DNA of 19,432 bases from Lachnospiraceae bacterium. Its GTDB lineage: Bacteria > Bacillota_A > Clostridia > Lachnospirales > Lachnospiraceae. The notes below the pieces were generated by a model. It saw only the letters and a list, made by a program, of their open reading frames with translations, ran no database searches and was not told the DNA's origin. The translations under genes were made by a program, and so were the position numbers. The stretch spans positions 1-19,432 of the forward strand of contig JAGADM010000008.1 in assembly GCA_017613595.1 (NCBI GenBank). Direction: 5' to 3'. How positions within the stretch are numbered: position 1 is the stretch's first letter; the number at the start of each line of letters is the position of its first letter. This document shows, one piece after another, positions 1 to 12,728 of the stretch.

Positions 1-1065
1 GATGTTCTCGCGAACGCTTAAATCCGCTATGATGCCGTCACGTTTACGGTCTTCCGCGAGATACCCGATGCCGTGACGCATCGCATCGACCGGGCGCGTA
101 ATCTTAACCGGTTCTCCCTTAACGGTTACCGTGCCGCCGTTAACCTTGTCGGCACCGAAGATTGCGCGGACGCTTTCACTTCGTCCCGAACCGAGAAGTC
201 CCGTGAACCCGTTGACTTCGCCCTTCCGGATCGAAAAATCAAACGGCATCGCCTCGGAGCTCGAAAGCCCCTTTGCCTCATAGAACACTTCCCGTTCCAT
301 GATTTTTTCTTCGTCGCCGTCGCCCAGATTGCTGAGCTCTTCGAGTTCTTTACCGATCATCTTTGAAACAAGCTGCACCTGCGGCAGTTCTTCGGTCAGG
401 TATTCGCCGACGAGTTCGCCGTTTCGAAGTACCGTGATCCGGTCGCTGACCTCGTAAACCTGCTCTAAGAAGTGGGTGACAAATATGATGCCGACGCCCT
501 GGGCACGAAGGTCCCTCATCAGTTTGAACAACATCTGCACTTCGTTATCATCGAGGGACGAGGTCGGTTCGTCCAGGATCAAAACCTTACACTGCATGTC
601 CACCGCGCGGGCAATGGCCACCATCTGCTGTACGGCAAGGGAACAGTTCCCGAGAAGCTGCGTGCTTCTTGCCGGAATTCCGAGTCTTTCAAGAATCTCA
701 TCCGCGCGTTTCTCACGGTCTTTGTGCCGAATCACAAAGCCGCTCTTTCTGCCGATGAACATGTTCTCGGAAACGGTAAGATTCGGGCACAGGGTAATCT
801 CCTGATACACCGTGCTGATTCCTTTATTCTGGGCATCTTCCGGCGAACGGATCACGATACTTTCCCCATCCAGCCGTATTTCTCCGCCGTCCATCTGATA
901 CACGCCCGTCAGCACCTTGATCAGGGTGGATTTGCCGGCGCCGTTTTCTCCCATCAGCGCGTGGATTTCTCCCTTTCTTAAGGAAAAGTCCACACCGTTT
1001 AAGGCAAGAACGCCCGGAAATCGTTTTTCGATGCCGCGCATCGTCAGTAAGCATTCTTCCTGCAT
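1..1065 (-). CDS. Sugar ABC importer ATP-binding protein (RbsA/MglA/YtfR type), 3' end missing
   Basis: This is the cytoplasmic ATPase of a ribose/galactose-class sugar importer with two fused nucleotide-binding domains. 355 codons are visible; the family is about 500 residues, so the end of the second domain lies beyond the window edge. The first domain has Walker A GENGAGKST (about residues 33-41), a YQE Q-loop, a Walker B VLILDEPTSSLD and a VTH H-loop. Its signature is unusual, NCSLAVQQM rather than LSGGQ, but QQM is typical of this family. The second domain has the degenerate P-loop GLLGSGRSE and the family-typical AEDRKRDG stretch. The start at 1065 has GGAGG six bases upstream. It lies 90 bp downstream of a sugar-binding lipoprotein gene, with a terminator-like hairpin between; permease genes probably follow outside the window. 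The substrate cannot be named from the ATPase. Confidence 0.95.
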   Translation of the reverse strand, partial: MQEECLLTMRGIEKRFPGVLALNGVDFSLRKGEIHALMGENGAGKSTLIKVLTGVYQMDGGEIRLDGESIVIRSPEDAQNKGISTVYQEITLCPNLTVSENMFIGRKSGFVIRHKDREKRADEILERLGIPARSTQLLGNCSLAVQQMVAIARAVDMQCKVLILDEPTSSLDDNEVQMLFKLMRDLRAQGVGIIFVTHFLEQVYEVSDRITVLRNGELVGEYLTEELPQVQLVSKMIGKELEELSNLGDGDEEKIMEREVFYEAKGLSSSEAMPFDFSIRKGEVNGFTGLLGSGRSESVRAIFGADKVNGGTVTVKGEPVKITRPVDAMRHGIGYLAEDRKRDGIIADLSVRENI

Positions 1066-1094
1066 GCCAATCCTCCATTTCCATGTGATTCCCG

Positions 1095-1136
1095 AAAAAA
1101 GCGCAGCCGAAGCTGATTGCCTCAGCCCAGCTGCGC
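1095..1136 (-). terminator. Intercistronic terminator between binding protein and ATPase
   Basis: On the minus strand GCGCAGC pairs with GCTGCGC (outer stem 1101-1107 with 1130-1136). A second stem GCTGA/TCAGC lies inside it, and a run of six T follows (1095-1100). It sits between the binding-protein stop and the ATPase ribosome binding site. Partial termination here would give more binding protein than ATPase, a common arrangement in sugar ABC operons. Full termination cannot be excluded from sequence. Confidence 0.75.
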
Positions 1137-1155
1137 GATTTCGCCGGATTATCGA

Positions 1156-2118
1156 TTAGTCACCAAGACCGTAGGTGTTGATGTCATTTTCCGTAATGGT
1201 CTTCGCGTCGAAGCCCTTTTCTTCATTGATGATGATCTTCTGGGAAGGAGCCTTACCGCTCTTGATCAAATCGCTGATGATCTTTGCCTGGAACGGGCTG
1301 CACTGTCCGTCGTAGTTCCATTTTCCTGCAAGGAGCTCACGAAGCGCCCACTTATTGCAGTCAAAACCGATAACAACAACCTTGCCGTCCACACCGTGTG
1401 TAATACCTGCTTCGTCAAGTGCCGCTACAGCGCCTCTTGCCATACCGTCATTCTCTGCGTAGATAACGTTGAAATCTTCGCCGCTGTTGATAACGGTCTC
1501 AACAATCTTCTTAGCTTCTGCTTCGTCCCAGCCGGCCGTCTGCTGAACAATCTTCTTCATCTTGCCGGAAGCAAACTGTGCGTCAAGAGCACCGGTACGT
1601 CCTACCTGAGCATCGGAACCCATAGCTCCCTGGATATGGATAACCTTGTACTCCGGAAGATTCTGAGCGAGCAGCCAGTTTACTGCGGTCTCGCCTTCTT
1701 TTGCCATGTCAGAAATAACGGCCGCCTCATAAAGGCTCTCGTCAACTTCGATCTTACGGTCGAAGATGTAAACCTTAACGCCTGCATCCTTTGCCTTCTT
1801 GAGAACGTCGTCCCAACCGGTCGTCTCAGCGGCGGAAATCAGAAGGTAATCAACACCGTCCGTGATGAATCCTTTTGCTGCCTGAAGCTGCTCGTCATTA
1901 ACCTTGCTGTAGAAAGTCTTAAGTTCGTACCCGTTCTCTGCAGAGAAAACGGCCTCCATGTCCTTTACATTTGCCTCACGGTAACCGGACTCCGACGGCG
2001 GGTTATTTACAACGCCGATCTTAATCTTTCCGTCTTTCTTGTCTCCCTTGCCGCAAGCTGCCAGCATGCAGGAACATACAAGAGTAACCACCAATAACAA
2101 AGCTTTTAACTTTCGCAT
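1156..2118 (-). CDS. Sugar-binding lipoprotein of ABC importer (periplasmic-binding protein type 1 / RbsB-YtfQ superfamily)
   Basis: This 320-residue extracellular lipoprotein should capture a monosaccharide and deliver it to the importer whose ATPase follows. The signal peptide has a hydrophobic core and lipobox LAAC with the acylated Cys at residue 22. The mature part starts IKIGVVNNPPSESGYREAN, typical of Peripla_BP_4 domains. It carries the repeated-domain signatures ITDGVDYLLISA, KDAGVKVYIFDR and VIYAENDGMARGAV. The start at 2118 has a perfect AAGGAGG nine bases upstream. It is related to, but clearly different from, the sensor lipoprotein at 4998-5972, so the two are probably transporter and sensor versions of a similar fold. 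A terminator separates it from the upstream response regulator gene, so it has its own promoter and is probably that regulator's target. The exact sugar is unknown; a pentose, galactose or galactofuranose are candidates. Confidence 0.92.
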   Translation of the reverse strand: MRKLKALLLVVTLVCSCMLAACGKGDKKDGKIKIGVVNNPPSESGYREANVKDMEAVFSAENGYELKTFYSKVNDEQLQAAKGFITDGVDYLLISAAETTGWDDVLKKAKDAGVKVYIFDRKIEVDESLYEAAVISDMAKEGETAVNWLLAQNLPEYKVIHIQGAMGSDAQVGRTGALDAQFASGKMKKIVQQTAGWDEAEAKKIVETVINSGEDFNVIYAENDGMARGAVAALDEAGITHGVDGKVVVIGFDCNKWALRELLAGKWNYDGQCSPFQAKIISDLIKSGKAPSQKIIINEEKGFDAKTITENDINTYGLGD

Positions 2119-2163
2119 TTTTGCTGTCCTCCTTCAAAATCTAAGGCCGTCATCGACCTTCCG

Positions 2164-2223
2164 AGGATAAGGATAGCGTATTTGTCCGCAAGGGTAAATC
2201 AAGGTTCATTTTGACTTTGTTCA
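2164..2223 (-). promoter_or_regulatory. Candidate activator-dependent promoter of the sugar importer
   Basis: Between the response-regulator terminator and the importer start lies a weak -35/-10 pair on the minus strand: TTTACC (2193-2198), a 17-bp spacer, then TATCCT (2170-2175). Just upstream two TGAAC copies (2219-2223 and 2204-2208) repeat with a 15-bp period. Poor core elements with repeats upstream would suit activation by an AraC-type regulator such as the one encoded next door. This is a reading by eye with low support. Confidence 0.3.
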
Positions 2224-2262
2224 AAATAAAACCGCGTTTGGAAGGTTTTCTCCAAACGCGGT
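2222..2262 (-). terminator. Intrinsic terminator of the sensor-kinase-regulator operon
   Basis: A perfect 12-bp stem, ACCGCGTTTGGA pairing with TCCAAACGCGGT (2231-2242 with 2251-2262), has an 8-nt loop. On the minus strand a TTTTATTTT tract follows. It lies just past the response-regulator stop and separates that operon from the importer genes. Confidence 0.9.
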
Positions 2263-2272
2263 AAGAATCATT

Positions 2273-3526
2273 TTATTCCGGTTGATTTTGATATTGCGCC
2301 CTATATTCCGAGGGTGTCATCCCGGTATTTTTCTTGAAGATATAACTGAAATAATGCGCGTCATTATAACCGACTTCCCGCGCAATCTGCGAACTTCTTT
2401 CGTCTGTGGTCCGCAGCAATTCCTTGGCCTTATTCAGCCTGAGATAGATCAGATACTCGGTAAACGTCTGCCCTTTCTGCTGGGAGAACACCGTTGAGAA
2501 CCGGCTGCTGCTCATGTTCACGGCCTTCGCGACATCCTGCAGCATCAGATTCGGATTTGTGAAATGAAGCGACATGTACAGCTTCGCCTCACTGATAACC
2601 GCGGGTGTTTTCTCGTCCTCCGAATCGCCCATTTCCCTTACGCCGAGAATGATCGACTTTTCGTCCGTCCGCTCTACCAGCAGGTGACGGATATGTCTTG
2701 CCGTTTTAAAACTGTGATAGATCTCCTCCGGCTTTTCGACAATGTCTCCGATTCCCACGCGGATTTCCGATGATCCCGTATGCTCCAGTTCTCTAACAAG
2801 GGTTGTGGCAAATGCGTACGCTCTCTCCTCAACGTCTTCGACGGTCTCCCCGGTGATCAGGAACCGTGTTCCGACCCTTCCCGGAGACGGGAGAACATTC
2901 CCGCCGCCTGCCTCCGAAAGCTCATCGGCAACCGCCTGTCCCTCGGCAGTCGGGGAGAATGCCGCATCGATCACCGCATAAAACGGAGCCGGAACGGAGC
3001 ATCCCATTGCCGCAAGCTGGGTAAGCACATTCGGTGCGTCCTCTTCGGCCGCTTCGTTCGAGAAGAGCGAGCCGATCAGTTTTTCTTTTACCAGCTTTCC
3101 GCCGCTTTCCATCCTCGCGCGGAGACTGGCCGCATGTTCAAACGTGTTGCGCTCTGCCTTCAGTTGCATGCTCACTTTATCGAGTACTTCCTTCAGATTG
3201 CCCGCATTGATGGGTTTCAGCATATACTCGCGAACGCCCAGCTGGATACACTGGCGCGCATATTCAAACTCATCATAGCCGCTGAGCACGATGACTCCGA
3301 TCCACGGCATCTGCTTCTGCATGATCCGGCACAGCTCGATCCCGTCCATAAAGGGCATTTTAATGTCTGTAATAACTATATCGGGATTGGTATCTCTTAT
3401 CATCGGAAGCGCCATTTCGCCGTCGGGTGCTTCCCCTACCAGTACATACGGCGTGTCGTCCCACGGAAAAGACTCGCGGATTCCTTCTCTGACAACAATT
3501 TCGTCATCAACCAGAAATACTTTCAT
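2273..3526 (-). CDS. YesN-type response regulator (receiver + AraC DNA-binding domain)
   Basis: This 417-residue regulator is expected to be phosphorylated by the LytS-type kinase encoded just upstream and to activate sugar-transport genes. The receiver domain (about residues 1-120) opens KVFLVDDE. The phospho-acceptor is Asp54 in VITDIKMP and the conserved Lys104 lies in EYMLKP. A middle region of about 190 residues has no domain I can name. The last 100 residues are a two-helix-turn-helix AraC domain, with LQDVAKAVNMSSSRFSTVF and IAREVGYNDAHYFSYIFKK. I chose ATG 3526 because AGGAG lies 10 bases upstream; GTG 3532 would also work. It overlaps the kinase gene by about 20 bp, indicating co-transcription. 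The likely target is the importer beginning at 2118. Confidence 0.95.
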   Translation of the reverse strand: MKVFLVDDEIVVREGIRESFPWDDTPYVLVGEAPDGEMALPMIRDTNPDIVITDIKMPFMDGIELCRIMQKQMPWIGVIVLSGYDEFEYARQCIQLGVREYMLKPINAGNLKEVLDKVSMQLKAERNTFEHAASLRARMESGGKLVKEKLIGSLFSNEAAEEDAPNVLTQLAAMGCSVPAPFYAVIDAAFSPTAEGQAVADELSEAGGGNVLPSPGRVGTRFLITGETVEDVEERAYAFATTLVRELEHTGSSEIRVGIGDIVEKPEEIYHSFKTARHIRHLLVERTDEKSIILGVREMGDSEDEKTPAVISEAKLYMSLHFTNPNLMLQDVAKAVNMSSSRFSTVFSQQKGQTFTEYLIYLRLNKAKELLRTTDERSSQIAREVGYNDAHYFSYIFKKNTGMTPSEYRAQYQNQPE

Positions 3527-4973
3527 TTTCACTTATCTCCTCTCTGGTTCTGCACGGAACCTTGAAACTTACCGAAGTTCCTTCCGCTCCGCTCTCAATC
3601 GTTAAGTCGTCCGCCTGATTATAGTAAAGACGGATACGCATATTGACATTGACCAGACCGAAACCTCCGCCGCCCTCACTGACCGTCGGCTGTCCTTTTT
3701 TCATTCTTTCCTCCAGGTCATGCAGCTGTTCCGGGCTCATTCCGAGCCCCGTATCGGTAACGGAAAAGTACAGAAAACCGTTCTCGAGTCTCCCCTTCAC
3801 ACGGATGATTCCGCCGCCGCGCTTAATCTTAATCCCGTGATAGAGAGCATTCTCCACAAGCGGCTGCAGCAGCAGCTTCAGAATATAGTAATCGCCGATT
3901 TCATCCGGGATATCAATCTCATAATCCATGATATCACGGTATCTCGTCTGCTGAATCTTCAAGTAACCTTCGATATGTTTCTTCTCCTGACTGATGGGAA
4001 TCCAGTCCGCACCGGAAGAAAGGCTGATTCGGAAGAAGTCGCTCAGCGCACTTGTCAACTGGATTACTTCATCCTTTTCGCCGGCCTCTGCCTTCCACAC
4101 GATGGCGTCCAGCGTGTTATAGAGAAAATGCGGATTAATCTGCGCCTGAAGCGTACGAAGTTCCGCTTTCCGGAGGCTTCTCGCATCCCGATTGCTCTTC
4201 TTCATCATATCCTCCAGACGATCCGCCATCGTATTTACCTGAAGCGTCAGATTCCGAAGCTCGGTAACGTTCGTATCTTCGATTCTGGCATCGAGAGAAC
4301 CTTCGGCAATGTGTGAGGCAACTTCCTCCAACCGCTCAATCGGAAGACGGACGGACGTTGCCGTCGCCTTTACGGACTTATTCCGGACAAGCAGCGCTAC
4401 GATAACGATCAGCAACTCCACCACCGCGGTGAGAAGCACCCATATCCGAAGACTCAGGCTCATCCTGGCCGCCGAATTGATCTCTTTCGCAATATATTCC
4501 GTCAGCATACTGTCAACAAGCGATGCCACTCCGCGGACCTCTTCCACAACGGCTTCGTTCTCCACAACGGGAATGTCGGTCTCGATATTTTCTTTTATGC
4601 GGTCCACATAGTTTTCCAGCGTCTGCATGGTACGCCTTGCCACAATCAGAGACAGCCTGCTTTCCTCGTCCGTCTGTTCCGTAATGGTATCAATGGTATC
4701 ATTTACCTTCCGGATGGTAGTATAAATATTGCTTTCGGCAAATGTGTCGCGCCCGCTTACGATATTCCAGGCGCTTTCCGGGATTTCCTCCGTAACGACT
4801 GTCTTCAGACTCGCCACGGTCTCCATACGGTCAATGGAGTTATGGTATTTGCCCGCATAAAAAAGCATCAGAACAAGACTTATGATGATGGGGATCACCA
4901 GCATAAATACCAGACGGTGACTTAAATCAGCAATCTGTCCGAGTATGCTTTTTTCCTTACTGACTTTACCCAT
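3507..4973 (-). CDS. LytS/YesM-family sensor histidine kinase
   Basis: This 488-residue membrane kinase is the middle partner of a lipoprotein-kinase-regulator three-component system. A first membrane helix (about residues 21-40) is followed by an extracellular domain of about 130 residues that should contact the sensor lipoprotein. A second helix (about 176-197) leads to a HAMP-like linker (about 200-255). The His_kinase domain holds the phospho-accepting His282 in QAQINPHFLYNTLD. The ATPase domain has Asn375 in PLVENALYHG, the G1 box DTGLGM at about 407 and a glycine-rich GGGGFGL at about 434. All catalytic motifs look intact. The gene begins 24 bp after the sensor lipoprotein stop and overlaps the regulator gene. 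The ribosome binding site is weak, which suggests translation helped by the upstream gene. Confidence 0.95.
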   Translation of the reverse strand: MGKVSKEKSILGQIADLSHRLVFMLVIPIIISLVLMLFYAGKYHNSIDRMETVASLKTVVTEEIPESAWNIVSGRDTFAESNIYTTIRKVNDTIDTITEQTDEESRLSLIVARRTMQTLENYVDRIKENIETDIPVVENEAVVEEVRGVASLVDSMLTEYIAKEINSAARMSLSLRIWVLLTAVVELLIVIVALLVRNKSVKATATSVRLPIERLEEVASHIAEGSLDARIEDTNVTELRNLTLQVNTMADRLEDMMKKSNRDARSLRKAELRTLQAQINPHFLYNTLDAIVWKAEAGEKDEVIQLTSALSDFFRISLSSGADWIPISQEKKHIEGYLKIQQTRYRDIMDYEIDIPDEIGDYYILKLLLQPLVENALYHGIKIKRGGGIIRVKGRLENGFLYFSVTDTGLGMSPEQLHDLEERMKKGQPTVSEGGGGFGLVNVNMRIRLYYNQADDLTIESGAEGTSVSFKVPCRTREEISENESISG

Positions 4974-4997
4974 TACATGCCTGCCTTTCCCGCAGTC

Positions 4998-5972
4998 CTA
5001 ATACCCTCTCGGTGCAATTGCCGAAACATTCATCTCATCACTGAACACCTGCTCCTCAGGATGGATCACTGCTTCCACACGTTCCCCGTTTTTCAGTTTG
5101 ATCGCCGTCTCCATCAGCGCCTTTCCGAGTTTCGGCGTACACTCCACCACACAGTTGATCTTTCCCGATTTCAGCACGTCAATGGCCTCCTGTCCACCAT
5201 CGATCGAGATGATCAGCATGTCTTTGCCGGGGACAAGGTTCGCCTTTTCAATCTCGGGGATTGCTCCGATCGTCATCTCATCATTGTGTGAAAAGACAAC
5301 ATCAATGGAATCACCGTACTTGTCAAGAAGATACCGCATGCACTCTGCACCCCGGCTCTTTAAAAAATCGCCGTCAATACTTTCCAGAATACACATGCGT
5401 GCGTCATCTTTCACCGTATCGTAAAACCCGGCCTGCCGCTGACGCATCGGTGTGGAATTTTCCGTTCCCGTTATTTCCACAATATTTATATGCTCTAACC
5501 CAAGGCTGTCGGCCTTTCGGATAAGATACTCCGCCGCCATGACGCCTTCCTTATAGAAGTCCGCACCGATCAGGCATGTGGTAAGCCCCTCCTGTGCGGT
5601 GTTGATGTCCCGATCCACCAGGATTACAGGGATTCCCGCATCTTTCGCTTCTTTAAGTACATTGTCCCAACCCTCTTCAACCACCGGGGAAAATGCGATT
5701 GCATCCACCTTATACGCGATAAAGCGCCGTATGGCGGCAATCTGGTTCTCCTGTTTCTGGTTGGCGTTTTCAAGCATCAGCCCGATACCGTAAGACTCTG
5801 CCTGCTCTTCGATATCCCTGGTGTTGCCGATACGCCACGCGCTTTCACTTCCGATCTGGCTGAACCCCAGAACCAGCCTCGAATCGCCTGTTTCTTCCTT
5901 CTTTTGCCCGCAACCGGCTGCTGCGAGCATCAGAACGATTCCGATAACACCCAATAAAATCTTTCTGTACAT
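4998..5972 (-). CDS. Sugar-sensing lipoprotein (YtfQ-like), XylFII-type partner of the LytS kinase
   Basis: This lipoprotein of about 324 residues has a YtfQ-like sugar-binding domain. The signal peptide ends LAAAGC with the lipid-bearing Cys at residue 21. The mature domain has hallmarks of the galactofuranose-binding YtfQ group: VLGFSQIGSESAWR, NQKQENQIAAIRRF, DAIAFSPVVEEGWDNVL, IPVILVDR and SHNDEMTIGAIP. It is encoded next to a kinase and regulator rather than directly with importer subunits. This matches the XylFII-LytS-YesN arrangement described in Clostridium, where the binding protein docks on the kinase and passes on sugar occupancy. The start at 5972 places the signal peptide correctly, but its ribosome site (AGAAGG) is only about two bases away. 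In-frame ATG 6032 is the alternative and would add about 20 residues before the signal core. The ligand is inferred only to be a monosaccharide. Confidence 0.9.
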   Translation of the reverse strand: MYRKILLGVIGIVLMLAAAGCGQKKEETGDSRLVLGFSQIGSESAWRIGNTRDIEEQAESYGIGLMLENANQKQENQIAAIRRFIAYKVDAIAFSPVVEEGWDNVLKEAKDAGIPVILVDRDINTAQEGLTTCLIGADFYKEGVMAAEYLIRKADSLGLEHINIVEITGTENSTPMRQRQAGFYDTVKDDARMCILESIDGDFLKSRGAECMRYLLDKYGDSIDVVFSHNDEMTIGAIPEIEKANLVPGKDMLIISIDGGQEAIDVLKSGKINCVVECTPKLGKALMETAIKLKNGERVEAVIHPEEQVFSDEMNVSAIAPRGY

Positions 5973-6051
5973 AGCCTTCTCTTTTCTTTTAGAAAAGCCG
6001 ATACGATCATAGATGTACCGGCTGTGTTTCATTTCTTTCGCGCCTTCGCTT

Positions 6052-6077
6052 GTGCAGGGAAATGGTATTCCCTGCAC
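6052..6077. repeat. 10-bp perfect inverted repeat upstream of the sensor operon
   Basis: GTGCAGGGAA pairs with TTCCCTGCAC around a 6-nt loop. It sits about 80-105 bp before the sensor lipoprotein start and about 60 bp after the exporter stop. No T-run follows on the minus strand, so it does not look like a terminator. An operator or a 5'-leader hairpin fits better. The 163 bp between the two genes shows no convincing core promoter. Confidence 0.6.
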
Positions 6078-6135: not shown

Positions 6136-8082
6136 TTAATCCAGTTCCCTGGTTCCCATGTAGAGCTCGTAATAACGGCCCTTCTGTGCGAGCAAATCGT
6201 CATGGTCGCCGCGCTCGATGATCTCGCCGTGCTCAAGAACCATGATCGCATTGGCATTGCGTACCGTCGAAAGACGATGAGCGATGACAAATGTGGTGCG
6301 GTCCTTCATCAGGCGGTCCATACCGTGCTCGATGTGACGCTCGGTACGGGTATCGACCGAACTGGTTGCTTCGTCAAGAACCAGGATCGGAGCCTTCGAA
6401 AGCGCTGCTCTTGCGATATTGAGAAGCTGTCTCTGACCTTGCGAGAGGTTCGCGCCGTCACCTTCAAGCTTCGTCTGGTATCCGTCGGAAAGACGCATGA
6501 TAAAGCTGTGCGCGCTGGCTGTCTTCGCTGCGGCGATAACTTCCTCGTCGGTTGCATCGAGACGTCCGTAACGGATATTTTCCATAACCGTTCCGGAGAA
6601 CAGGTGCGTATCCTGCAGTACCATTGCGATATTCTTACGAAGTACGTCTCTTTCGATCTGTTTAACGTCTACGCCGTCAATCGTTATCTTTCCTTCGTTA
6701 ATGTCATAGAAACGGTTCAGAAGGTTCGTAATCGTCGTCTTACCGGCACCGGTGGAGCCGACAAATGCGATCTTCTGGCCGGGCTTCGCATACAGGTTGA
6801 TGTCTTTGAGGACGGTCTTGTCAGGGTTGTAGCCGAAGGTTACATGCTCCATGACAACGTGTCCCTTCATCGCGGGCATCGGATCGGCGTCCTTCACATC
6901 CGGCGCCTCCGGAACCTCGTCCATAACCTCGAAGACACGCTCAGCGCCTGCGAGAGCCGAGAAGAAGGTTGCCATCTGCTGCGAAAGCATATTGATTGGC
7001 ATCGCGAACTGACGGGAATAGTTGGCAAATACCGTAAGTCCGCCGGCCGTAACCTTGCCGAAGATCATCAGCACGCCGCCGATACCGACCGTCGCGGCGT
7101 AGGAAATCTGCGAAGTGTTGCCCATGATCGGTCCGGTCACGCCGCCCCAGAACTGCGCTTTGAACTGCTTGTCGCGCATATCGTCATTGAGAGCGGAGAA
7201 CTCTTCCACGCAGCATTCCTCGTGGTTGAATACCTTTACGACCTTCTGACCGGTAACGGTTTCTTCAATATAGCCGTTCACTGCGCCGAGTGCACTCTGC
7301 TGTGCGGCATAGTATTTGCGGCTCAGTTTACCGATTGTCAGACCGCCGAACAGAAGAAGCGGAATGAATACCACGGTAACGATTGTCAATATCCAGCTTG
7401 TGGTGATCATGAAGATCAGCGTTCCGACAAGCGTTACACCGCCCGAAACAAGCTGTGTAAACGAGTTATTGATCATGACATCGATGTTATCGATATCGTT
7501 TGTGAAACGGGACATGATCTCACCGGTCTGTCTCGAGTCGAAGAAACGAACCGGAAGCTTCTGCAGTTTCGCGAACAGATCGTTACGGATCCGCTCGATC
7601 ATACCCTGCGAGATGGAAAGCATCAGGCGGGCCTGCGTATAGGTTGTGATAACGCCGATGCAGTAAATGGAAGCGAGCATGATAAGCGCCATCAGAATGT
7701 AAGTCATAACCGCCGGATCGCCGGGGAAGAACTTATCCGCGAAACGGAGGATCCATTTGTCCGCAATCTTTTCGAATACGGATCTCTTTAATTCCTTATC
7801 CGGATGCACCGCCAGATCAAGTTTGTTGATGATCGGTGCCATAAAGTAACCGCCGACAAGGCTGGTAACCGTCGTTACGAGCATGCACAGAAGAACGAGT
7901 GCGAAACGGAGACGGAAACCTTGCATGTAGGTAAGAAGCCTTGCGATGGTCTTCTTTGCGCTCTTCGGCTTGCCGCCCATCATTCCGCGGCCTCTCGGGC
8001 CTCCCTGCGGGCGCTGCTTGAACGCATTTTTCTTAGCTATGCTGTTGTACTGCTGCTGCAGCTGTTCCAATGATCTTGCCAT
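6136..8082 (-). CDS. Heterodimeric ABC exporter subunit, catalytically competent half (LmrD/BmrD-like)
   Basis: This 648-residue half-transporter has membrane helices at about residues 57-370 and a C-terminal ATPase domain. It should pair with the product of the gene just upstream to export drugs, lipids or peptides. A 45-residue Gln/Gly/Arg-rich cytoplasmic extension precedes the first helix. The ATPase motifs are complete: Walker A GSTGAGKT with Lys448, Q-loop VLQD, signature LSQGQ at about 546, Walker B LVLDE with catalytic Glu571, and H-loop His602 in IAHRLSTV. The start at 8082 has AAAGGGGG upstream and lies 4 bp after the partner's stop, so the two are translationally coupled. No strong terminator is visible after the gene. 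The substrate is unknown. Confidence 0.93.
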   Translation of the reverse strand: MARSLEQLQQQYNSIAKKNAFKQRPQGGPRGRGMMGGKPKSAKKTIARLLTYMQGFRLRFALVLLCMLVTTVTSLVGGYFMAPIINKLDLAVHPDKELKRSVFEKIADKWILRFADKFFPGDPAVMTYILMALIMLASIYCIGVITTYTQARLMLSISQGMIERIRNDLFAKLQKLPVRFFDSRQTGEIMSRFTNDIDNIDVMINNSFTQLVSGGVTLVGTLIFMITTSWILTIVTVVFIPLLLFGGLTIGKLSRKYYAAQQSALGAVNGYIEETVTGQKVVKVFNHEECCVEEFSALNDDMRDKQFKAQFWGGVTGPIMGNTSQISYAATVGIGGVLMIFGKVTAGGLTVFANYSRQFAMPINMLSQQMATFFSALAGAERVFEVMDEVPEAPDVKDADPMPAMKGHVVMEHVTFGYNPDKTVLKDINLYAKPGQKIAFVGSTGAGKTTITNLLNRFYDINEGKITIDGVDVKQIERDVLRKNIAMVLQDTHLFSGTVMENIRYGRLDATDEEVIAAAKTASAHSFIMRLSDGYQTKLEGDGANLSQGQRQLLNIARAALSKAPILVLDEATSSVDTRTERHIEHGMDRLMKDRTTFVIAHRLSTVRNANAIMVLEHGEIIERGDHDDLLAQKGRYYELYMGTRELD

Positions 8083-8086
8083 CTGC

Positions 8087-9856
8087 TCACGCCCCCTTTC
8101 CCGTCTGAGACTCGTAGATTTCACGGTACTCGGTGTTATTTGCAAGCAGCTCGTCATGGGTTCCCATACCGGTGATCACACCGTCGTCCATAACGATGAT
8201 CGTGTCAGCATCCTGAACGGAACTGATACGCTGCGCAATGATCAGCTTGGTCGCTTTGCGGAGATTCTCGGTGTACGGATCCGCCTCGCCCATAATCGGC
8301 ACGGATTTCTCGGAAAATGCTTTCCGGATCTGTGCTTCGGTCGCCGTATCAACGGCGCTCGTCGAATCGTCAAGGATCAGGATCTTCGGCTTCTTAAGAA
8401 GCGCTCTCGCGATACAGAGACGCTGCTTCTGGCCGCCGGACACGTTCGTTCCGCCCTGCTCGATCATCGTGTCGTAGCCGTCGCGGAAGGCCGAGACAAA
8501 TTTGTCTGCCTGCGCGTACTCCGCCATACGCCTGATCTCTTCGGGAGAAGCATTCTCATCGCCCCACTGAAGGTTCTCGGTTACGGTTCCGGAGAACAGC
8601 GTGTTCTTCTGAAGAACCATGGATACACCTTCACGGAGGTTATAAAGCGAATAGTCACGGACATCCACGCCGTCCACAAGCACTTCGCCTTCATCACAGT
8701 CATACAGTCTCGGGATCATCGAAACAAGCGTCGTCTTACCGCAGCCCGTTGAGCCGATGATGCCGACCGTGGAACCAGCCGGAATATGCAGGTTGATATT
8801 GTTCAGAACCTTCTCTTCGCTGTTCTTATAGTATCGGAAGGAAACGTTCTTAAAGGTAATCTCGCCGTTCTGTACGGTCAGATCCTTCTGCTTTGCGTTC
8901 TCATCGGTCAGGTCGAGAGGCTCATCCATAACTTCACGGATACGCTTTGCGGAAGCCAGCGCTCTCGAAGAGAACATCAGCAGGAAGGTGATCATGACAA
9001 GCGAGGAAAGAATCTGCGTTACGTATGTTAAGAACGCGGACAGATCACCGATCTCCATTCTGTAATCGAGAACCATCGGCCCGCCGATCAGGATAACGGC
9101 GATAACGGTTCCGTTCATGAAAAGCGTCATGACCGGAGACATAAAGATCATAACCTTGGAAGCGGAAATACCCGCTTTTTTCAGGTTTGCGTTGGATTCG
9201 CGGAACTTTTCAATCTCGTAATCCTCACGGACGAAGCTCTTAACCACGCGTACGTTTGTAACATTTTCCTGAACCGTCGAGTTCAGGGCGTCAACCTTCT
9301 TCTGCACGCGGCCGAATCTCGGGAAACCGGTAAAGATAATGCCTCCGACCGCTACGAGCATGGTCGGGATGGATACGGCAAATACAACCGACAACGGGGG
9401 ATTCAGAAGAATCGCCATGACTAACGCCGCGATCATCATACCCGGCGCGCGGAGCGCCATACGAAGAACCATCGCGATGAAGTTCTGTACCTGCGTTACG
9501 TCATTGGTAAGACGCGTAACGAGGGAACCGGTTGAAAACTTATCAATATTCGCGAAAGAATACTGCTGGATTCTGCGGTAGCAATCCTCTCTTAAGTCCG
9601 CGGCAAAGCTGACGGAAGCCTTCGAGGCGAAATATGCGCCGCCGATACCGCCGGCCATCATGACAAGTGCCGTCAGGATCATCAATCCCATGATTCCGAG
9701 GCTGGTCGCCGTTGTCAGCGTTCCGCGGTTCGCATTGTTGATGACAATTGCCAGAAGTCTCGGCATGATTACTTCACCGACTACTTCCACAATCATACAA
9801 AGCGGTCCGAGAATGAAGAACGCCAGATACGGCTTAATGTACTTCGACCATTTCAT
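8087..9856 (-). CDS. Heterodimeric ABC exporter subunit, degenerate-site half (LmrC/BmrC-like)
   Basis: This 589-residue half-transporter has a six-helix membrane domain (about residues 8-300) followed by an ATPase domain. Walker A is GSTGCGKT with Lys374 and the signature is the canonical VSGGQ at about 472. However, the Walker B motif ends in Asp496-Asp497 (LILDDST), so the catalytic Glu is replaced by Asp. The H-loop His is Gln542 (IAQRISSV). This asymmetry is the hallmark of heterodimeric type IV exporters such as TM287/288, LmrCD and BmrCD, where one ATP site is non-hydrolytic. A short extra stretch of about a dozen residues around position 520 precedes the H-loop. It begins 48 bp after the MarR gene and is co-transcribed with the catalytic partner. 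Confidence 0.94.
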   Translation of the reverse strand: MKWSKYIKPYLAFFILGPLCMIVEVVGEVIMPRLLAIVINNANRGTLTTATSLGIMGLMILTALVMMAGGIGGAYFASKASVSFAADLREDCYRRIQQYSFANIDKFSTGSLVTRLTNDVTQVQNFIAMVLRMALRAPGMMIAALVMAILLNPPLSVVFAVSIPTMLVAVGGIIFTGFPRFGRVQKKVDALNSTVQENVTNVRVVKSFVREDYEIEKFRESNANLKKAGISASKVMIFMSPVMTLFMNGTVIAVILIGGPMVLDYRMEIGDLSAFLTYVTQILSSLVMITFLLMFSSRALASAKRIREVMDEPLDLTDENAKQKDLTVQNGEITFKNVSFRYYKNSEEKVLNNINLHIPAGSTVGIIGSTGCGKTTLVSMIPRLYDCDEGEVLVDGVDVRDYSLYNLREGVSMVLQKNTLFSGTVTENLQWGDENASPEEIRRMAEYAQADKFVSAFRDGYDTMIEQGGTNVSGGQKQRLCIARALLKKPKILILDDSTSAVDTATEAQIRKAFSEKSVPIMGEADPYTENLRKATKLIIAQRISSVQDADTIIVMDDGVITGMGTHDELLANNTEYREIYESQTGKGA

Positions 9857-9904: not shown

Positions 9905-10348
9905 TTATTCCGACGCCGTAAGCGCCTTCAGGTTGCCCTGCATCCGAAGAAGCACTTCCATAAAGGATTCGAGCTCCTCGTCGGATATTCCCGCGCACAT
10001 CGCATCGTCCAGATCGCCGAAAATCTTCTTCGTACGCTCTACGATCGCGCGCCCGGTTTCGGAAACCGTGATTTCCTTTTCGCGGCCGTTTTTCATGGTC
10101 CGTTCAATGAAACCGGCTTTTTCAAGCTTCTGGATTGTCCCCGTAACCGCAGCCGGACTGATTCCGAACGCCTTCGCCATTTCCGCCTGTGACGGTATGT
10201 TCTCGCAATGATAGAGATACATCAGCATCATATGCTGGCTCCGGTGGATGCCGAGAGTCGCCAGCTGGCTTTCCACGGCCGCGCGGTGCGCCCGGTCGGT
10301 TGCACAGAATGTCTGAACGATATCCGTTGACGAATGTCTTTCTGCCAT
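9905..10348 (-). CDS. MarR-family transcriptional repressor
   Basis: This 147-residue winged-helix regulator, typical in length for MarR, probably represses its own operon with the two exporter genes that follow. The recognition region reads PSQAEMAKAFGISPAAVTGT, then IQKLEKAGFIERT. The wing is formed by NGREKEITVSETGRA. N- and C-terminal helices would make the dimer interface. The start has AAAGGAG five bases upstream. A 31-bp perfect palindrome overlapping its promoter is the obvious operator. The inducer is presumably an exporter substrate; its identity is not visible. Confidence 0.95.
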   Translation of the reverse strand: MAERHSSTDIVQTFCATDRAHRAAVESQLATLGIHRSQHMMLMYLYHCENIPSQAEMAKAFGISPAAVTGTIQKLEKAGFIERTMKNGREKEITVSETGRAIVERTKKIFGDLDDAMCAGISDEELESFMEVLLRMQGNLKALTASE

Positions 10349-10401: not shown

Positions 10402-10432
10402 AATTAACGCGTTAACAGTTAACGCGTTAATT
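10402..10432. promoter_or_regulatory. 31-bp perfect palindrome, presumed MarR operator
   Basis: AATTAACGCGTTAAC and GTTAACGCGTTAATT flank a single central base. Equivalently, two copies of the self-complementary 12-mer TTAACGCGTTAA are separated by 3 bp (10404-10415 and 10419-10430). It overlaps the -10 element and the start region of the marR promoter, so repressor binding would block RNA polymerase. The 15-bp centre-to-centre distance of the two 12-mers could hold two MarR dimers side by side. Confidence 0.88.
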
Positions 10433-10487: not shown

Positions 10488-11999
10488 TTATTCTCCGCTT
10501 TCATTCTGCTCCGCTCGAAACGCTTCCATGGCCGCGGTAAATGCCGTGCCGTTAATCTCGCGGTTATAAGCCTTACGGATCAGCTCCGAGTATTTCATAA
10601 CCGTCCGGCTGTCCGTTACTCCGTCGTTGATGCTGATGACGAAATCGCTTGCCTGTCGGAGCCTTCCCGTAATCTGAGCGGAAAGCGCATCCACACCGGT
10701 TGTATCATAATTCACCGTCCAAGCAGGAAGCGCGGCCCCGTCGAGGTAAATATACATAGAAACAAGCTGCCCTAATTCCATCGCATACTGCGCCGCAAGT
10801 TCCTTCTGCGCGGAACCGTTATTCACCGCAAGCGCCTTATCCGCTCCGCATAAGAACTGACCTGCACCGGAATCAGCACTGTCAATCACCGGAAAATCAA
10901 CCACAGCGATGTCGTCGCAAATCGCCAACTCCGGGCAGTTCCAGCTTCCGCCCAAATAGAAAGCGTAGCGGCCGTCCATGAAATCTGCCTTCACCTCTCC
11001 GTTGCCGCGACCGGACGCATCATCCGCAGGAGAGAAATATCCCTTTTGAACAAACTCCTCATAAAGGTCGATTGCTTCCGCAACATCCCGGTTCTGCCAG
11101 GATGCGCCGTTCCGATAGATGGCCTGAAGCGCTGAAGCTCCGGCACTCTTAATGATCAGCGTTTCGAGATACTCGCTCATGCACCATTCCTCATCAGCAC
11201 AACCAAACGGAGCAATACCGTTTTGGCGTAACGTTTCACAGCACGTGATAAGCTCGTCATAAGTGGAAGGAACCTCATTTATGCCGACCGAACGAAGCAC
11301 TTTCCTGTTTACGAAAAGAGCTCTCACGGTAACCATATACGGAACGCCGTACAACTTTCCGTTATAACTGACATTTTCACACATTGTTTTCGGTAATGCA
11401 TCCGTATATTTCGCATATGCACCGTCCAGGCAATACACCTGCCCCTGTGCAGCCATATCGTCAAGAACATACCCGTTTCCCACACAGAAGATATCAGGCG
11501 CCGTTCCTTCCTGAAGTGCCTTACTTACTGCCAATTCCAGTTCCGGGTCCCAATAAGTTTTTAAACAAAGATCAACATTCGGATACTTTACCCGCATTTC
11601 GTCGATTGCTCTCTCAAACGCAACCTTGTCGAACGAACCTTCCTTGGCGGTACACCACATCGTAAGCGATGTTTTCGCGGCATTTCCGGTCGGGGTATCG
11701 GTCACATGGCCGGTCGGGTTATCGCCGGTACGGGTACCCTTCAGGTTGTTTTTATACTTCACTCCGAAATACACCGCGGCAGCGATTCCTCCGATCAGCA
11801 CAACCCATAATAATGCGGCTGCCGCGCGCATTCCCCACACAAACAGCTTTGAGGACGTCTTTCGCCTCGCTTTTTTATCCCGTGCGCCCCCACCCGGCGC
11901 ACCCTTCGAAAACTGAAACATGCTTTTCTCCTTTTTCTGTTGTTCGTATTGTTCCTTAGCTTTCATCACTCTTCGGAACACTTCGTCATGATCTCTCAT
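10488..11999 (-). CDS. Membrane-anchored extracellular solute-binding protein, possible anti-sigma/co-sensor of adjacent ECF sigma factor
   Basis: This 503-residue protein lacks a cleavable signal or lipobox. It has a charged cytoplasmic tail (about residues 1-51, MRDHDEVFRRVMKAKEQYEQ then a basic patch), one membrane helix (about 57-80) and a Thr/Gly-rich linker. From about residue 110 onward it has a family 1 (maltose-binding type) solute-binding domain, with APDIFCVGNG, YNGKLYGVPY, PSTYDELI and FMDGRYAFYLGGSW. The outer domain has about 12 cysteines, many for this family. It starts 43 bp after an ECF sigma gene with GGAGG upstream, so the two are almost certainly co-transcribed. Topology and position are those of an anti-sigma factor, but no zinc-type HxxxCxxC anti-sigma motif is present. 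The sigma-regulating role is inference; a tethered transporter-type binding protein is the alternative. Confidence 0.85.
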   Translation of the reverse strand: MRDHDEVFRRVMKAKEQYEQQKKEKSMFQFSKGAPGGGARDKKARRKTSSKLFVWGMRAAAALLWVVLIGGIAAAVYFGVKYKNNLKGTRTGDNPTGHVTDTPTGNAAKTSLTMWCTAKEGSFDKVAFERAIDEMRVKYPNVDLCLKTYWDPELELAVSKALQEGTAPDIFCVGNGYVLDDMAAQGQVYCLDGAYAKYTDALPKTMCENVSYNGKLYGVPYMVTVRALFVNRKVLRSVGINEVPSTYDELITCCETLRQNGIAPFGCADEEWCMSEYLETLIIKSAGASALQAIYRNGASWQNRDVAEAIDLYEEFVQKGYFSPADDASGRGNGEVKADFMDGRYAFYLGGSWNCPELAICDDIAVVDFPVIDSADSGAGQFLCGADKALAVNNGSAQKELAAQYAMELGQLVSMYIYLDGAALPAWTVNYDTTGVDALSAQITGRLRQASDFVISINDGVTDSRTVMKYSELIRKAYNREINGTAFTAAMEAFRAEQNESGE

Positions 12000-12042
12000 A
12001 TTCTTCCTCCGACTTTATAAGGTATAGGTCTTTCCTCCCCTC

Positions 12043-12579
12043 TTACCTATCTTCTAACTTCATACGAAGCGACTTTTTGGCGCGCTCAAAAAGATGATAG
12101 ATTCCGGCCGAAGATTTTCCCATGACTCCTGCTATCTCACTGAGTTCCATTCCTTCGTAAAACTTAAGTGTCAGAACCTTCCGGTAGTCCGGACGCAAAT
12201 CATTCATTGCGCTCGCTAACCGTTCCCGTTCTTCCCTCTCGACAAGAATCGCTTCGGCGTTCCCCTCACCGTATCCGTAACTAACGAGTTCCTCCGACAA
12301 AGGCTCCGTTTCCGGCGGTTTGCACCGGATCCGGTCAATTGCCAGATTACGTCCGATTGTATAAAGCCATGTCTTAAAAGACGACCGTCCCGCGAATCGC
12401 GGCTTCTTGGTCGCCAGAACTATCATGGCCTCTTCGGCACAGTCTTCGGCATCCGTAAGATTATTCAGATAGGCGTTCAGATAAAGCGCCAGTCCGTCAT
12501 AATACAAGTCGATAATCCTGCGGAGTCCCTCATCGTCACCGTCCAGGAAACGGCGGTAGCTACTTGCACCGTTATCCAT
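12043..12579 (-). CDS. ECF-type RNA polymerase sigma factor
   Basis: This 178-residue sigma-70 family protein directs RNA polymerase to a specific set of promoters. Region 2 spans about residues 22-90; it includes DAEDCAEEAMIVL and the promoter-melting/-10 reading helix FKTWLYTIGRNLAIDRIR. A 30-residue variable linker follows. Region 4 covers about 118-175, with LRPDYRKVLTLKFYEGM and a helix-turn-helix LSEIAGVMGKSSAGIYHLFE. Regions 1 and 3 are absent, as expected for ECF factors. AAGGAGG lies about eight bases before the start. It is co-transcribed with the membrane-anchored solute-binding protein. ECF factors usually control their own operon, and the leader upstream contains direct repeats that could be involved. 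Confidence 0.95.
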   Translation of the reverse strand: MDNGASSYRRFLDGDDEGLRRIIDLYYDGLALYLNAYLNNLTDAEDCAEEAMIVLATKKPRFAGRSSFKTWLYTIGRNLAIDRIRCKPPETEPLSEELVSYGYGEGNAEAILVEREERERLASAMNDLRPDYRKVLTLKFYEGMELSEIAGVMGKSSAGIYHLFERAKKSLRMKLEDR

Positions 12580-12614
12580 TGAGGTTCCCTCCTTTGCTCT
12601 TCTGTCCTTTAGAC

Positions 12615-12675: not shown

Positions 12676-12728
12676 ACTAACTTCCGGTCTCAACTTCGTC
12701 CTTTGTTTTTGCCTGACTAACTTCCGGT
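12676..12728. repeat. Two 13-bp direct repeats 40 bp apart upstream of the sigma factor
   Basis: ACTAACTTCCGGT occurs at 12676-12688 and again at 12716-12728, exactly 40 bp apart. Each is followed by a looser CGTCCT match. On the minus strand the core is ACCGGAAGTTAGT. They lie between the candidate promoter and the sigma start, suggesting a binding site in the leader or an ECF promoter element. Confidence 0.7.

Follow-up and report, generated by a model that had tools for sequence, protein, structure and literature searches.

Why should a whole extracellular solute-binding protein (SBP) be encoded, anchored in the membrane, directly downstream of a sigma factor gene? This question is raised by two genes on a 19,432-nucleotide stretch of DNA from a rumen bacterium of the Lachnospiraceae, referred to here as the window. 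Direct reading placed both open reading frames (ORFs) where an initial annotation, made from the sequence alone, had put them: on the minus strand, with a gene for an extracytoplasmic function (ECF) sigma factor first, its SBP partner downstream and 43 bp between them. The pairing described in that annotation is confirmed by ORFs, profiles and the architecture predicted by AlphaFold2 (AF2). The model that best accounts for the pair, and which we regard as likely, is that the partner is a receptor with a short-helix anti-sigma tail resembling those of class II, gated in this case by a sugar and probably released by regulated proteolysis.

Architecture of the sigma factor and its partner

The window sigma factor comprises regions 2 and 4 only, matching Sigma70_r2 with 48.4 bits (cut-off 24) and Sigma70_r4_2 with 44.0 bits (cut-off 25.7). 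Its score of 88 bits with the sigma70-ECF profile TIGR02937 (cut-off 42.9) places it in the ECF class. AF2 modeling of the partner alone predicted two helices (residues 3-31 and 52-78) and, starting at about residue 109, a confidently modeled SBP fold; confidence was low in residues 27-106. Over residues of about 149-405 the outer domain scored 65.2 bits with SBP_bac_8 (cut-off 27) and 64.2 bits with SBP_bac_1 (cut-off 26), and these matches together with the full fold assign it to the SBP_bac domains. The nearest structure is 4g68, matched by the family profile at E 2.6e-95 and 25% identical in an alignment of 382 residues; it is named a xylotriose complex (PMC10384115; this and the other papers cited here are drawn on for those portions of text that were available). 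The likeliest origin of the outer domain is recruitment from an oligosaccharide ATP-binding cassette (ABC) transporter of the xylo- or arabino-oligosaccharide type. Instead of the lipobox or signal peptide and the adjacent permeases of a transporter component, the window protein has a tail and an internal membrane helix.

The tail (residues 1-51) contains 16 lysines or arginines, seven aspartates or glutamates and a single histidine; residues 27-51, with eight basic versus one acidic residue, follow the positive-inside pattern. Class I zinc anti-sigma (ZAS) domains carry the motif HxxxCxxC in a domain of about 100 amino acids. Since the tail holds no cysteine, the cysteine motif of such a domain is absent, as the initial annotation had noted, and no zinc-finger anti-sigma match was obtained in the window protein up to E 1. 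A Pfam match to DEP in the window proteins was under cut-off and was set aside.

Tailed solute-binding proteins stand behind sigma genes

A protein search in which 7998 candidates were scored returned 17 matches at E <= 1e-10, the window protein among them. Eleven of the 13 other matches that were aligned are tailed; P0013 is a lipoprotein-like SBP without a tail, and P0014 is a piece of 328 amino acids that starts within the domain. Relatives of the sigma factor (E <= 1e-25) occur in 17 of the 22 genomes of the genus of G001, with 55 matches and 1 to 6 per genome, and in 23 of 299 genomes of the family; five of the 55 (36-40% identity) were left out of the locus collection.

When the same 22 genomes were searched with the SBP, 61 matches were found, comprising eight tailed full-length proteins, two partial matches (residues 1-121 and 1-108 only, in G306 and G318) and 51 that start at residue 60 or later. 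All eight tailed proteins (in G001, G002, G003, G302, G307, G309, G315 and G192) lie directly behind a sigma gene, and its recurrence in 8 of the 22 genomes shows that the pair is not a chance arrangement. The initial annotation had supposed that a sigma switch would lose its footing if homologues of the anchored protein mostly stood beside permeases without the sigma gene, a situation that the tailed proteins of this genus do not present. Six loci were read for the closer matches among the 51 untailed paralogues; each has a pair of BPD_transp_1 permease genes after the SBP gene, and all six paralogues qualify as ABC transporter binding proteins. One untailed SBP/permease operon (L198) lies between genes for an FGGY carbohydrate kinase, upstream, and a histidine kinase, downstream, a context hinting at pentose-type sugar use; L202 and L203 hold genes that by eye are similar to these surroundings.

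The tail was also searched alone (50 amino acids), which yielded 29 matches at E <= 1. A sigma gene stands immediately upstream of all 17 matches with E <= 0.0223 and of 5 of the 12 weaker ones, so that the suggestion of a tail conserved only beside the sigma gene holds for the better matches.

The tail is the most conserved part and outlasts its outer domain

Mean identity and the ratio of nonsynonymous to synonymous differences (pN/pS) were determined over nine loci, the window included. Within the partner, conservation is highest in tail residues 1-26 (identity 0.90, pN/pS 0.116); the lack of tail conservation that the initial annotation would have counted against its model is thus not seen. 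The sigma factor itself gave 0.87 and 0.198. The values are 0.60 and 0.50 for the membrane helix with its flank, 0.47 and 0.55 for the SBP domain, 0.43 and 0.78 for tail residues 27-50, and 0.32 and 0.82 for the linker.

Two loci, in G318 and G306, are orthologous to that of the window, with a gene of metallo-beta-lactamase fold before and MarR and ABC exporter genes after. Their sigma factors are 73% identical to the window's, and 21 and 19 of the 26 tail residues are as in the window (73-81%); the outer domain is unrelated to the SBP and has no Pfam match. The sensor was thus exchanged at one orthologous locus while the tail was kept. A frameshift or assembly error divides the G306 partner gene into two overlapping ORFs (L205:7811-8347 and 8304-9182, minus strand). 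Between the exchanged receptor and MarR, G318 has one more sigma gene (Sigma70_r2) with a gene without Pfam match downstream of it (L204:7968-9523). In G192, G307 and G315, the sigma/SBP pair stands in other neighborhoods (for G315, one flank extends for just some 0.7 kb), and the pair thus travels as a unit.

The tail follows the sigma factor across paralogues

Sigma factors at least 40% identical to that of the window are mostly followed by a single-pass protein with the tail pattern M[RK]xxxE[VM]xxx[VLI]xx[RK]xExY, in which E6 is present in 49 of 54 and Y18 in 40 of 54 sequences (two of the 54 being wrongly trimmed). From 78 extracted sigma/partner rows, duplicates included, L107, whose sigma gene contains a TAG in frame, and four duplicates (L019, L021, L022 and L038) were removed before clustering; tail statistics are based on 53 pairs, with L024, L025, L026 and L028 left out.

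When proteins of different outer domain are compared, those with more similar sigma factors also have more similar tails (r 0.54, reached in 0 of 2000 permutations). For pairs with the same versus a different outer domain, tail identity was 0.312 versus 0.276 at a sigma identity of 0.3-0.4, 0.284 versus 0.311 at 0.4-0.5, 0.407 versus 0.353 at 0.5-0.6, and 0.483 versus 0.563 at 0.6-0.8. At equal sigma identity, a common outer domain has no consistent effect on the tail. Of the 25 proteins that could be tested, 23 have their best-matching tail beside a near sigma factor (>= 0.55) with another outer domain and not beside a distant one (< 0.6) with the same outer domain.

A modular family of outer domains

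The outer domains of these partners form clusters without detectable kinship, namely SBPs, serpins and several groups without a Pfam match; in L032, the partner beside a 38%-identical sigma factor carries DUF4179. Several other weak Pfam matches in the partners of relatives were under cut-off and were discarded. A maximum-likelihood tree of 61 sigma factors, that of the window among them, unites the SBP pairs in a single supported group (100/99), and the serpin, C and D outer domains require 3, 3 and 4 changes, respectively.

All ten serpin members match PF00079 over cut-off, although two (L088 and L089) stop at contig ends ahead of the loop. Of the eight that reach it, six have the hinge GTKAAAVT, which we take to be typical of inhibitory serpins; L094 nearly has it (GTQAEAAT), and L048 deviates. 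Tail-anchored serpins behind paralogous ECF sigma factors may possibly act as a protease-sensing sigma switch.

That the same kind of tail is found on quite different outer sensors, serpins included, suggests a plug-and-play receptor family. In going beyond the initial annotation, which had considered the SBP by itself, the comparison of these proteins indicates that such tails carry many interchangeable outer domains, of which the SBP is one. We lean slightly towards the view that they constitute an undescribed modular signaling family of the Lachnospiraceae, in which up to six paralogous ECF sigma factors per genome would each be held by a one-helix-tail receptor with outer domains plugged in at will: SBPs for nutrient sensing, and serpins with an inhibitory-type hinge, which change shape greatly when they trap a protease and would thereby let the sigma switch sense proteases.

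Structure models of sigma factor and tail

In L046 the sigma stop, the gap and the partner lie in one frame, and the contiguous reading, with TGA taken as tryptophan, was folded by AF2 using an alignment of the fused rows and sigma rows only. The tail was predicted as one helix (model residues 197-225, tail residues 4-32) with a predicted local distance difference test (pLDDT) of 93 and 88 in its blocks. The sigma part, both domains taken together, deviates from anti-sigma-bound ECF sigma factors by a root-mean-square deviation of 7.8 (4nqw), 8.5 (4cxf) and up to 13.8 Angstrom, versus 16.9-24.9 Angstrom for ECF sigma factors in transcription complexes. The tail fits the length of class II anti-sigma domains, which have about 50 amino acids or less and make contact with sigma2 and sigma4, and is predicted as a single helix in the presence of the sigma factor, in a model from which contacts are not readable. 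We take the fused model as weak support for a complex of tail and sigma factor.

A promoter-like element precedes the sigma gene

Upstream of the sigma gene, the element GGCGAA-N16-CGTCTAA is exact in 8 of 10 aligned loci, with CGACAAA as the -10 in L084 and L085. Within the window it is the single exact match, which alone counts, since allowing up to 3 mismatches gave 4 matches versus 6.4 expected. Each of the eight SBP-sigma genomes has one exact copy, which lies directly upstream of the sigma gene in seven; in G309, element and sigma gene are close to the ends of two different contigs. Among the paralogues, a wider -10/start motif, [TA]CTAA..[AG].{2,3}G.A, defined on the same sequences in which it was counted, is present in 40 of 54 upstream regions versus 1.2 expected from shuffles. 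A conserved promoter-like element in this position fits autoregulation of the sigma gene. Further upstream of the sigma promoter, CCGGAAGTTAGT occurs twice on the minus strand (window 12676-12687 and 12716-12727), and similar stretches lie upstream of the paralogues L003, L102 and L111.

Proposed mechanism and alternatives

In the mechanism that we favor, the first 26-30 residues of the partner would form one helix that, like a leash, holds the ECF sigma factor inactive at the membrane, and the membrane helix and proline/threonine (P/T) linker join this tail to the outer SBP domain. Ligand binding outside would alter the receptor and, most likely, make it accessible to regulated intramembrane proteolysis; degradation of the tail would then free the sigma factor, which would switch on its own promoter and further targets. 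The design is modular, in that tails of this kind, joined to other outer domains, serpins included, also stand behind related sigma factors of the genus. Release of this kind has precedents in RsiV, cleaved first by signal peptidase and afterwards by RasP (PMC6066255), and in RsgI, which is degraded by RseP and then ClpXP (PMC12203970). The site-2 protease family PF02163 was present in 6 of 6 genomes, yet also in 14 of 14 control genomes.

Several observations weigh against this mechanism. The fused model has a predicted template modeling score (pTM) of 0.51, its contacts and error matrix were not visible, and the fold search addressed its sigma part and not the tail; the higher pLDDT of its tail, relative to 83 and 59 for the comparable blocks of the window partner alone, comes from a comparison spanning different sequences and alignments. 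In two of the four sigma-identity bins (0.3-0.4 and 0.5-0.6), tails are slightly more alike when the outer domain is shared, and two of the 25 proteins (L053 and L117) show the opposite tail preference. Moreover, part of the correlation reflects relatedness, given that a tail is inherited together with its sigma factor and that the 53 pairs include several near-copies. As to the promoter, GGCGAA-N15..17-CGTCTAA gave 9 matches in 15 genomes versus 14 for the reversed pattern, so the count is no evidence and the case rests on position and alignment; one of the nine (spacing 15) lies in G305, a genome without a sigma match, and 14 of the 54 upstream regions lack the wider motif. No regulon beyond the sigma gene itself emerged when one mismatch was allowed in six genomes (16 matches, six of them sigma promoters, versus 47 for the reversed control), and the promoter search gave no transporter or glycosidase target.

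The tail might bind and hold the sigma factor while the trigger is something other than a sugar, the SBP being a bait, a cell-surface stress sensor or a reporter of transporter occupancy through contact with a permease. The outer domain is fast-evolving (pN/pS 0.55, 47% identity) and was exchanged at the orthologous locus, so its ligand may vary, and RsiV, which binds lysozyme directly, illustrates that the outer domain of an anti-sigma factor can bind a protein (PMC6066255); with these points in its favor, we still judge a different trigger to be rather unlikely. The comparative evidence, moreover, reveals a partnership and not its sign, as would also be seen if the partner were a positive co-factor or a membrane tether required for sigma activity and not an inhibitor. 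Membrane proteins encoded beside ECF sigma factors are, however, mostly anti-sigma factors (general knowledge; PMC8103513), and the modeled sigma factor resembles inhibitor-bound forms, which leaves a positive role quite improbable in our estimation.

We give very little credence to the idea that the anchored SBP is a mere nutrient-capturing receptor under sigma control, its tail serving as a retention signal without binding the sigma factor. SBP domains do normally serve transport, and permease-adjacent paralogues exist in the same genomes, but the tail is the most constrained part of the protein, lies behind sigma genes, survives outer-domain exchange and follows the sigma factor. In addition, gene reading and helix counts revealed no importer-type permease pair around the SBP gene in the window, L001, L002, L046, L206 or L207.

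If the sugar-gated anti-sigma receptor and its relatives work as proposed, a minimal anti-sigma helix would be a universal plug for outer sensors, and transporter-type SBPs and serpins would count among the sensors by which sigma factors are gated. In uncultured rumen bacteria, one could then guess from the outer domains what several paralogous switches respond to, and the short sigma/tail pairs, perhaps orthogonal, could be useful for sugar- or protease-responsive gene switches.

Features and neighborhood of the locus

The features of the gene pair, together with the serpin partner genes of its relatives, are collected in Table 1.

Table 1. Positions in the window of the sigma/SBP gene pair and its elements, and loci of serpin partners
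Feature	Position or locus	Strand	Basis
ECF sigma factor gene, 178 aa (amino acids), regions 2 and 4	12043..12579	-	ORF list, Pfam and TIGR02937 profiles
Membrane-anchored SBP protein, 503 aa, proposed anti-sigma receptor	10488..11999	-	ORF list, Pfam, AF2 model
ECF-type promoter element of sigma gene, GGCGAA-N16-CGTCTAA	12609..12637	-	Alignment, pattern search
Shine-Dalgarno AGGAGGG of sigma gene	12587..12593	-	Direct reading
Shine-Dalgarno CGGAGGAAG of SBP partner	12003..12011	-	Direct reading
Tail residues 1-26, highly conserved, proposed sigma-binding helix	11922..11999	-	Conservation, tail searches, models
Tail residues 27-51, basic, poorly conserved spacer	11847..11921	-	Conservation, residue counts
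Transmembrane helix, residues 52-78	11766..11846	-	AF2 helix 52-78; hydropathy scan of homologues
P/T-rich linker, residues 79-108	11676..11765	-	Alignment; AF2 low confidence
Extracellular solute-binding domain, residues 109-503	10491..11675	-	Pfam, fold comparison, AF2
Serpin partner genes	L053, L093, L094, L095, L098, L100, L102, L048, L088, L089		Pfam

Window positions 1-6077 hold an SBP-linked two-component sugar system near the proposed sigma switch. It includes an MglA-like ATPase named by eye (1-1065), Peripla_BP_4 sugar-binding proteins (1156-2118 and 4998-6077), an AraC-type response regulator (2273-3532) and a histidine kinase (3507-4973). An ABC exporter pair (6136-8157 and 8087-9856) and a MarR gene (9905-10348) follow, and the palindromic repeat TTAACGCGTTAACAGTTAACGCGTTAA (10404-10430), between the SBP gene and the MarR gene, is possibly a MarR operator for the exporter pair.

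Comparison with known systems

RsiP belongs to ECF30. The RsiP/sigmaP and RsiV/sigmaV pairs (the latter of the ECF30 group, in Bacillus) each combine an ECF sigma factor with a single-pass anti-sigma factor, as the window pair would, the outer domain of RsiV meeting the signal (PMC6066255). Unlike the window protein, which has no DUF4179 match up to E 1 and an SBP instead, RsiV and RsiP carry DUF4179 at the membrane helix and just outside it. Since L032 carries DUF4179 beside a 38%-identical sigma factor, a distant link to RsiV/RsiP is possible.

CnrY, the class II anti-sigma factor of CnrH, senses via a separate periplasmic protein. Its very short cytoplasmic domain holds an ECF sigma factor with two helices (PMC7406223; 4cxf); the window tail, for which such holding is proposed, is predicted to have one (residues 3-31).

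The RsgI/SigI pairs of Clostridium thermocellum, to which the initial annotation had likened the locus, share with the window family an inner N-terminal domain, one membrane helix, a trans-wall region and swappable outer sensors on paralogous pairs, those of RsgI being carbohydrate-binding modules (CBM), glycoside hydrolase and peptidase-like domains (PMC12203970). The analogy in design holds, but the closest mechanistic relatives include RsiV and the short class II domain of CnrY, not RsgI alone. The window sigma factor is ECF and not SigI, no RsgI-type match was obtained in the window protein up to E 1, and SBPs, serpins and unnamed domains serve as outer modules.

With regard to the outer domain, CuaDSR of Ruminiclostridium cellulolyticum likewise uses an SBP of the 4g68 structural neighborhood as a sugar sensor for gene control (PMC10384115). 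That SBP is a separate protein working with a histidine kinase, whereas in the window it is joined by a membrane helix to the proposed anti-sigma tail. XBP1 (4g68), a xylotriose-binding transporter SBP, shares the fold of the outer domain and lacks tail and sigma factor.

In the literature covered (titles and abstract openings, with subscription papers mostly outside), no ECF anti-sigma factor with a solute-binding or serpin outer domain was found; PMC3990059 and PMC10059941 are incidental in their available text. The logic (RsiV, RsgI), the short class II domains (CnrY) and SBP sensors with histidine kinases (CuaDSR) are known, and what appears new is an SBP, or in relatives a serpin, joined to a one-helix tail behind an ECF sigma factor.
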